From NCBI RefSeq assembly GCF_021025955.1, contig NZ_JAJNCL010000011.1, positions 124,001 through 188,000 on the forward strand: a stretch of 64,000 bases of DNA. Reading direction: 5' to 3'. A program made the position numbers and the translations under genes. The notes under the pieces are model-generated. The model saw only the letters and a program-made list of their open reading frames with translations. It had not been told where the DNA came from and did no database searches. This document shows positions 12,947 to 13,336 of this stretch, in pieces (the stretch's first letter is position 1; each line of letters starts with the position of its first letter). The stretch comes from Rhodococcus qingshengii. GTDB taxonomy: Bacteria; Actinomycetota; Actinomycetes; Mycobacteriales; Mycobacteriaceae.

Positions 12947-13033
12947 TCAGAGGCTGACGAGCGAAAGACCGGGGTGAGCACCGTCGGTAAGAGCAGAGGG
13001 CTGGGTCGAATATCGACTCGGCGGGTCGTCCAC
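12947..13033 (-). CDS. Putative Mg2+-responsive leader peptide (28 aa) upstream of mgtA
   Basis: A GTG start stands 8 bases after a perfect AGGAGGTGA ribosome site, giving VDDPPSRYSTQPSALTDGAH followed by PGLSLVSL. It lies downstream of the M-box and 133 bases before mgtA. The opening Asp-Asp-Pro-Pro resembles the acidic/proline start of the enterobacterial MgtL leader (Glu-Pro-Asp-Pro), where such residues destabilise translating ribosomes at low Mg2+ (established for MgtL). A regulatory role here is inference. Confidence 0.6.
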   Translation of the reverse strand: MDDPPSRYSTQPSALTDGAHPGLSLVSL

Positions 13034-13117: not shown

Positions 13118-13336
13118 GACGTACTCTCGCCTTCGCCGGAAGAAACCGGCATCAAGCTGCGAAAACACCTCCACGTCCGAGTTTTGGCACTGCACGACGT
13201 GTCCCGATCCAAACCGGGAAGCCACTTTGGATCACCCCTTAAGCCGGGGAGATCTGTCCTAACCTTGGGCGTCTCTCGACGTCGTGAGATCAGTGGCCTG
13301 TGTTCGTGCAGAAGCCTCACCTAACGAGGTACTGCA
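13118..13336 (-). promoter_or_regulatory. M-box (ykoK-type) Mg2+ riboswitch
   Basis: On the minus strand the leader contains CGTTAGGTGAGGCTTCTGCA, the near-invariant M-box opening, then GTCGAGAGACGCCCAAGG, a match to the conserved GUC-AAAGACGCCAA block, then GCAGCTTGATGCC, matching the conserved GCAGCUGGAUGC block. The ends (GCAGTACCTCG and CGAGAGTAC) can pair as P1. M-boxes fold with Mg2+ and switch off Mg2+ transporter genes; here mgtA and mgtC lie downstream. Boundaries are approximate. Confidence 0.85.

Follow-up and report, generated by a model that had tools for sequence, protein, structure and literature searches.

The mgtA-mgtC operon of Rhodococcus qingshengii is preceded by an M-box (Mg2+) riboswitch and, between this aptamer and mgtA, by a short leader ORF (uORF) with a strong ribosome site, and uORFs in the same place follow most of the actinobacterial M-boxes that we read. 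The Rhodococcus version starts with Asp-[Asp/Glu]-Pro-Pro, and these codons are apparently constrained at the amino-acid level. We consider the chances about even that this is a riboswitch-gated leader ORF whose translation shields a Rho-loading site and whose D-[D/E]-P-P start is slow.

In a covariance search of the window, by which we mean the whole 64-kb stretch of DNA analysed, the RF00380 match covers the full model (1–169), and the genome search returned no M-box match besides this one. The leader ORF that follows (Table 1) begins with GTG at 13033–13031, so that residue 1 would be fMet, continues on the minus strand with GAC GAC CCG CCG AGT CGA TAT TCG, and ends after 28 codons with a TGA stop at 12949–12947. 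mgtA has an SD of its own, AGGAG (12825–12821, minus strand). No stop interrupts the frame of the leader ORF back to a GTG at 13225 inside the aptamer, 92 codons in all for 13225–12947; thus, the SD is what defines the 28-codon ORF. Among relatives, the uORF1 frame of leader L002 runs into D-D-P, and the corresponding frame of L004 is broken by a stop. The sequence and the 149.1-bit aptamer confirm the preliminary description in its central point, a 28-codon ORF with a strong SD between an M-box and mgtA-mgtC. Elsewhere, the same genome encodes a second MgtA-like P-type ATPase (contig C22, 152397–154877; 43% identical), and the window contains a SAM-IV riboswitch (49944–49830, minus strand, 116 bits).

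Table 1. Features of the mgtA-mgtC operon and its leader, in window coordinates.
Feature	Position	Strand	Basis
M-box (Mg2+) riboswitch aptamer, RF00380	13335-13162	minus	cmscan 149.1 bits; gathering score 44
SD1-like GGAGGTG, 3' strand of aptamer	13172-13166	minus	sequence
CTCCTG, candidate anti-SD 5' of the uORF	13106-13101	minus	pairs with CAGGAG of SD2 in the minimum-energy fold
SD2 AGGAGGTG, predicted ribosome site of the leader ORF	13047-13040	minus	6-nt spacing to GTG; conserved
Leader ORF (uORF) VDDPPSRYSTQPSALTDGAHPGLSLVSL	13033-12947	minus	sequence and conservation
Codons 2-5, Asp-Asp-Pro-Pro	13030-13019	minus	apparent amino-acid-level constraint in Rhodococcus
Codon 6, AGT (Ser), family-wide signature codon	13018-13016	minus	codon counts
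Small hairpin GTCGA-TAT-TCGAC, codons 6-10 of the ORF	13017-13005	minus	helix 2 of the A3 consensus, 94% of cells paired
Anti-start segment, ORF codons 16-21	12987-12973	minus	predicted pairing with SD2 and start codon (13043-13030); helix 1 of the A3 consensus
C-over-G, rut-like stretch over the ORF body	13009-12932	minus	C/G 2.43 in the best 78 nt
Two hairpins between leader ORF and mgtA	12921-12876	minus	predicted folds
mgtA, Mg2+-importing P-type ATPase	12813-10120	minus	TIGR01524 1204.7 bits, cut-off 610.75
mgtC-family gene	10110-9406	minus	NF011912 175.3 bits, under the equivalog cut-off of 255

Overlapping samples of genomes were searched at four ranks, and an M-box was present in 7 of 28 genomes of the genus, 92 of 401 of the family, 33 of 397 of the order and 26 of 394 of the class. 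A hand count gave 163 different M-box matches (149 + 3 + 11), of which 145 were read and 18 left out. Under a fixed rule (an SD with AGGAGG or GGAGGT, a start 3–12 nt further on, 5–50 codons, and at most 200 nt from the aptamer), 132 of the 145 leaders contain a uORF. In dinucleotide-shuffled leaders, the mean was 1.8 and the maximum 4 (20 rounds; leaders with N skipped), and control positions at +700 and +1000 of the same leaders gave 2 and 0 of 145, respectively. The uORFs are 6 to 47 codons long, their later parts differ strongly between genera, and, as judged by eye, they stand before differing genes. Thirteen leaders lack a uORF under the rule; judged by eye, four of these (L084, L088, L061 and L062) have the SD immediately 5' of an mgtC-like frame, so that the target of the riboswitch seems to be the first ribosome site that is met. 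Such an M-box directly before an mgtC-like ribosome site fits a translational riboswitch output.

The uORF starts are of several kinds. The common start, M-S-[P/S]-[G/S]-D-S-P-Y-P, occurs in Mycobacterium-like, Nocardia-like and other genera (these genus labels are tentative), while V-D-[D/E]-P-P-S-R belongs to Rhodococcus in the wide sense. Further starts are M-P-D-D-S-H-S, M-S-D-G-S-H and the Nocardia-like V-P-D-G-S-D-R-V-P-L-A-N-R-S, and family f34 has a quite different one, M-R-x-R-S-S. In a scan of one genome per species (84,980 species), SD2 followed by GTG-GAY-GAN-CCN-CC matched 10 stretches; nine are from Rhodococcus, each directly 3' of an M-box, and the tenth is from Streptomyces and does not lie behind an M-box. 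Similarly, an SD-start-GAY-AGT-CC pattern was found at 24 places in 14 of 201 genomes, all 24 just 3' of an M-box when coordinates were compared by hand, and its reversed control had no match among the matches listed. Both patterns were drawn from M-box leaders, so what can be learned from the scans is that other places lack such starts. R. oryzae (L162, 631–804 (-) and 1049–1222 (+)) and R. maanshanensis (L164, 2910–3083 (-) and 3310–3483 (+)) each have two divergent M-boxes, about 227–245 bp apart, and in R. oryzae a V-D-E-P-P leader (L081) lies opposite a V-S-I-S-D-S-P leader (L083), which places both kinds of uORF in one intergenic region. In a Nocardia-like genus, the uORF start of L053–L057, L059 and L071 is nucleotide-identical (GTTCCGTTAGCCAATCGTTCAC) and includes the very rare Leu codon TTA; an mgtC-like frame lies downstream of the uORF in L054–L057 and L071.

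The V-D-[D/E]-P-P starts of Rhodococcus comprise seven distinct haplotypes. Within codons 2–5, all four third positions vary among these haplotypes and none of the eight first and second positions does (p 0.002 if sites are exchangeable), and the encoded residues differ only at codon 3 (Asp to Glu). Moreover, these codons sit in the loop of the consensus RNA structure, save for the first base of codon 2, so constraint on the peptide is the simplest reading. Codons 2–5 are thus apparently under amino-acid-level constraint in Rhodococcus, as far as haplotype comparison goes; the group was itself selected by its peptide, which introduces circularity into the test. A set defined instead by the aptamer ends (GCAG.. 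and ACGTGGAG..) also takes in L032, L038, L084, L085 and L088. L032 and L038 start M-D-D-V-R and M-D-D-P-A, with Asp2-Asp3 kept and Pro4-Pro5 not both kept, and the SD of L085 lies before a frame of 17 codons that starts like MgtC. Six of the 28 genomes of the genus carry mgtA, and exactly these six have an M-box and D[D/E]PP; the seventh M-box genome is without mgtA and has a uORF that starts M-S-D-G-S-H. In L005, from a single-contig Rhodococcus genome, the frame stops after six codons (VDEPPQ); a run of seven C (1790–1796) follows GTG GAC GAA, one base off the other D[D/E]PP frames. We did not adopt L005 as a six-codon ORF, since it hangs on this one-base difference in a C run, either a real change or a sequencing error. 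The expectation that the Asp/Pro start would be conserved across relatives thus holds within Rhodococcus, where frame start, ribosome site and D[D/E]PP are kept in the seven haplotypes (with the short frame of L005), and fails beyond it, as the uORFs of Nocardia-like and Mycobacterium-like genera (e.g., M-S-x-G-D-S-P-Y-P) do not match it codon for codon.

The uORF also occurs before mgtA where no M-box is detectable. In 296 genomes of the class, with at most three MgtA candidates scored per genome, a TIGR01524 match exceeded the cut-off in 28, and it surpassed 1180 bits in three, the genome of the window, G850 and G912. G850 and G912 gave no M-box match even at E up to 1; their leaders carry AGGAGGTG followed by M-S-P-D-R-S-P-C-S-A-L-V-R or V-S-D-D-H-S-R-L-T..., with AGT at codon 6. 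A close MgtA is present in 15 of 111 genomes of the Streptomyces-type genus to which G850 belongs; the uORF was found in all 14 of their mgtA leaders with enough upstream DNA (the fifteenth is cut at 236 nt), and an M-box at the gathering score in none of the 15. The family of G912 has MgtA in 1 of 17 genomes, G912 itself. Additionally, Streptomyces sp. BHT-5-2 has a 72.8% identical MgtA, and its leader encodes M-S-P-E-G-S-P-C-R-S-A-A-A-S and gives no Rfam match. None of 25 lower-scoring P-type ATPases (L175–L199) has this uORF start in the stretch scanned. Other SD-led short ORFs do precede ATPases, in L186 (M-P-A-V-P-L-P...) and in L193 (V-Y-Y-I-D-D-P-D-I...); the latter has 39 codons, unrelated to those of the leader uORF, and lies about 217 nt before the ATPase match. 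By eye, the Streptomyces-type leader seems to have a 5' hairpin of its own, and an unknown aptamer would be compatible with the lack of an Rfam match. Retention of the uORF before Streptomyces-type mgtA without a detectable M-box suggests that it has a role of its own, apart from the riboswitch.

A serine codon marks the uORF starts. Among 114 distinct starts behind M-boxes, 62% of the 336 Ser codons at codons 2–11 are AGT, versus 3% of 265 later in the uORF and 5% of 2959 in downstream frames. Serine at codon 6 is encoded by AGT 73 times, by TCT six times and never by AGC. Within nucleotides 4–45 of these leaders, 215 AGT triplets are in frame and 17 are not, and 14 of the 114 uORFs have no in-frame AGT at codons 4–15. 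TAT (95% vs 15%) and CAT (86% vs 30%) are also raised in the uORF starts.

The body of the uORF is rich in C over G. The C/(C+G) share peaks over the ORF body and not before it, with a mean of 0.60 in 60-nt windows at +20 and +40; there, 50–52% of 146 leaders exceed 0.6, compared with 8% of 1752 control windows (mean 0.50). From +80 to +400, the share is 0.52–0.54, and 9–23% of leaders exceed 0.6. A C-over-G stretch is a weak mark of a rut site, and the genome encodes Rho (662.6 bits).

Based on consensus folding of ten Rhodococcus leaders, SD2 and the start codon can pair with codons 16–21, with the hairpin of codons 6–10 lying between. This helix has 13 pairs with about 95% of cells paired (95.0%, 95.4%) and both-side changes in 2 pairs. 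It shows 5 double-change cells versus 1.6 in shuffles (3 of 500 reach this value), and slid versions pair at 22–60%; four of the ten sequences are near-identical. By other counts, the helix is unexceptional, with 3 both-side-changed pairs versus 1.4 (36 of 500) and 10 further pair types versus 10.1. In the single-sequence fold of the window leader, SD2 is paired instead to the upstream CTCCTG (whole-leader z −4.44). There is moderate evidence that the predicted start-region pairing is one of two alternative folds in Rhodococcus. Across all leaders, duplexes between start region and body are on the whole stronger than those of shuffles (median z −0.55), with 52 of 143 below −1 and 8 above +1. 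In the 14 Streptomyces-type leaders, the SD and start codon are predicted to pair with codons 2–4 and 6–9 (97.5% of cells paired), with 6 double-change cells versus 2.6 (6 of 500), slid versions at 35–51%, 2 both-side-changed pairs versus 1.4, and 6 further types versus 6.6. These 14 leaders (L202–L213, L215 and L216), which match no Rfam family at the gathering score, would have SD and start codon of the leader ORF in this conserved hairpin, about 257–430 nt before the MgtA match. The predicted pairing accounts for AGT in these Streptomyces-type leaders, and this account does not extend to the others: the 33 x-S-x-x-D-S-P leaders yielded no consensus fold, so a common RNA structure behind AGT was set aside.

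Upstream, a CTCC-type anti-SD motif is present in 73 of 128 leaders, versus 35.7 expected, and the energies of anti-SD duplexes with SD2 are not above those of shuffles (median z 0.08). When the aptamer strand was freed, SD2 was predicted to be more open in 44 leaders and less open in 8 (25 up and 5 down with a shuffled strand); relative to a shuffled upstream stretch, SD2 was less open in 46 and more open in 17. For the D[D/E]PP leaders, no opening of SD2 was predicted upon release of the aptamer strand. With energies equal to those of shuffles and accessibility shifts that are modest and absent from the D[D/E]PP clade, upstream pairing was dropped as a general explanation, and support in these leaders for an upstream anti-SD as in the M. 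tuberculosis model is weak. An intrinsic terminator at the stop codon was likewise rejected, as terminator-like hairpins over the ORF stop codon occur at chance level (1 found, 0.8 expected) and the U tract behind it is kept in L006 and lost in L002–L004. The two hairpins before mgtA, proposed earlier as the output, appear in the folds of L001–L004 and L006 and are not recognisable in L005; that proposal is unsupported, since they are confined to close relatives and have neither usable covariation nor a U tract.

The nearest described counterpart is uORF2 of mycobacterial M-boxes (Rv1805A, Rv1535A and Rv0115A), which D'Halluin et al. (2026; PMC12810186), in the excerpts on which we draw here, describe as mycobacteria-specific and of unknown function. 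The same excerpts state that the counterpart uORF of M. tuberculosis is under M-box control through a translational platform with Rho termination, and that the main termination peak lies upstream of uORF2; thus, Rho there need not depend on uORF2 translation. They also cite an earlier study by the same group from 2023, and Rv0115A is mentioned in PMC10824437. The Rhodococcus uORF resembles uORF2, as excerpted, in its place between the M-box and the first gene, its strong SD2, the SD1 in the 3' end of the aptamer, its short ORF with a conserved start and a variable end, and mgtC in the operon. In contrast, it starts V-D-[D/E]-P-P-S-R and not M-S-P-x-D-S-P, it is followed by mgtA, and its start region has a possible pairing partner within the ORF. 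In particular, Pro at position 7 is reported in PMC12810186 to be conserved in most or all of the mycobacterial peptides, whereas position 7 is Arg, or Gly in L120 and L165, in those V-D-[D/E]-P-P leaders whose codon 7 is intact; the Rhodococcus uORF is therefore a positional counterpart, and not a member, of the uORF2 (Rv1805A) family. As far as listings and abstracts show, with subscription journals and preprints mostly uncovered, PMC12810186 is the only account of this uORF in print. Control of an actinomycete uORF by an M-box is thus already known from M. tuberculosis, as the excerpts of that paper state; this material holds no printed account of the uORF outside mycobacteria, in further genera and families, or of its D[D/E]PP form, its M-box-free form, the AGU signature or the rut-like body, all of which are new here, as is the possible pairing of the start region with later codons of the ORF.

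Enterobacterial MgtL likewise comes from a short ORF in an mgtA leader and opens with acidic residues and prolines; Rho, which takes part in the MgtL system, may do so in the Rhodococcus leader. Unlike MgtL, the Rhodococcus ORF stands behind an M-box, and its prolines come after the acidic residues, whereas the two alternate in MgtL; the window ORF starts D-D-P-P and not with an EPDP-type alternation. Across the uORF set, acidic residues make up 15.9% of residues 2–9 versus 5.0% from residue 12 on, and Pro 21.7% versus 9.1%; both occur in the starts of 115 of 137 distinct peptides. The positional match of the set to residues 2–9 of MgtL (sequence from NC_000913) is not significant, its score being reached by 4186 of 20000 permutations, and positional homology was rejected. 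The earlier suggestion of an mgtL-like leader is thus in agreement with the composition of the start and not with the positions of its residues. In comparison with B. subtilis, the aptamer belongs to the same ykoK-type family (149 bits), while the expression platform does not resemble an intrinsic terminator, no conserved hairpin with a U tract having been found.

In the mechanism that we propose, the M-box would decide whether SD2 is open. At high Mg2+, SD2 would be closed, the ORF would go untranslated, and Rho would load on its C-rich body and terminate transcription before mgtA. At low Mg2+, the ORF would be translated, ribosomes would cover the C-rich stretch, and transcription would proceed into mgtA-mgtC. 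The D-[D/E]-P-P start would slow ribosomes just past SD2, which would prevent the start region from folding onto its partner segment within the ORF; a slow start may also add direct sensitivity to ribosome fitness, and hence to Mg2+. We infer the direction of gating, the involvement of Rho, the slow start and any ribosomal sensing of Mg2+. The M. tuberculosis case, as excerpted, supports gating and Rho in that organism, with the termination site upstream of uORF2 as a reservation. Against a shield alone stands the conserved N-terminus, which a pure shield would not need; excerpts of work in E. coli report that Asp before Pro-Pro stalls ribosomes (PMC4176338).

A rival reading is a leader working like MgtL, in which ribosomes would drop off or stall at D-[D/E]-P-P at low Mg2+, the start region would pair with codons 16–21 and hide the Rho site, and mgtA would be transcribed, so that M-box and ribosome would form two Mg2+ sensors in series. 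The acidic and Pro enrichment at residues 2–9, the codon constraint on D[D/E]PP, the persistence of the uORF before mgtA in the 14 Streptomyces-type leaders and G912, and the start-region helix, which would serve as the alternative fold, all favour it. According to excerpts of PMC11282234, early acidic residues destabilise E. coli ribosomes, an effect that EttA counters, and MgtL is one example; E. coli MgtL operates in the manner of this reading and depends on EttA. The genome of the window encodes a protein scoring as EttA (878.9 bits). Even so, we regard this reading as unlikely, given the insignificant positional match to MgtL; moreover, the same excerpts report that a di-acidic pair alone is not enough for an EttA-dependent reporter in E. 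coli, where a DPEE context is needed, and those of PMC12810186 that full-length uORF2-lacZ fusions are well expressed in M. smegmatis (about 650 Miller units). Alternatively, the N-terminal conservation could lie at the RNA level, the first codons being part of the start-region hairpin and the peptide irrelevant. The Streptomyces-type pairing would indeed account for AGT CCC GAN and AGT CCT in those leaders, and AGT is kept rather than AGC. This reading is improbable in our view, because codons 2–5 in Rhodococcus are looped but for one base and vary in third positions only, the x-S-x-x-D-S-P leaders lack a consensus structure, start regions of the Streptomyces type do not beat shuffled bodies by duplex energy (14 leaders, median z 0.11), and AGT keeps so strictly to the reading frame.

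D'Halluin et al. suggest a trans-acting small protein for Rv1805A, and a homologue, Rv0115A, exists outside an M-box, both according to the excerpts of PMC12810186. For the leader ORF we hold a product acting in trans to be very unlikely: what is conserved lies mostly within about the first ten residues of ORFs that differ widely in length, the uORF precedes different genes (by eye), and expression had no visible effect in the biofilm assay described in those excerpts. Finally, short ORFs are common in such GC-rich DNA, as a chance ORF or an annotation artefact would suppose, and conservation has already refuted this, with 132 of 145 leaders versus 1.8 in shuffles and nine of ten pattern matches behind an M-box; we give it practically no credence.

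Beyond the riboswitch-gated shield, we tentatively raise the rather less probable idea that the leader ORF of several families of Actinomycetes is a ribosome-level Mg2+ sensor, which would act with an M-box in Rhodococcus, Mycobacterium and others, and alone before Streptomyces mgtA, where a hairpin with its own codons would lock the ribosome site. If this were true, the D-[D/E]-P-P version of Rhodococcus would be a true two-layer Mg2+ sensor of RNA plus ribosome. What had been described as a mycobacterial peptide without a known role becomes an element of several actinobacterial families with definite, testable parts, namely, a start constrained at the amino-acid level, a fixed AGU codon, a hairpin in the start region and a body resembling a rut site. 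In the Streptomyces-type mgtA leaders without a detectable M-box, the contribution of the ORF could be measured apart from a riboswitch, and in laboratory species that are harmless. If the ribosome part senses Mg2+, the leader would be an actinobacterial counterpart of enterobacterial MgtL, probably convergent, stacked on a riboswitch.
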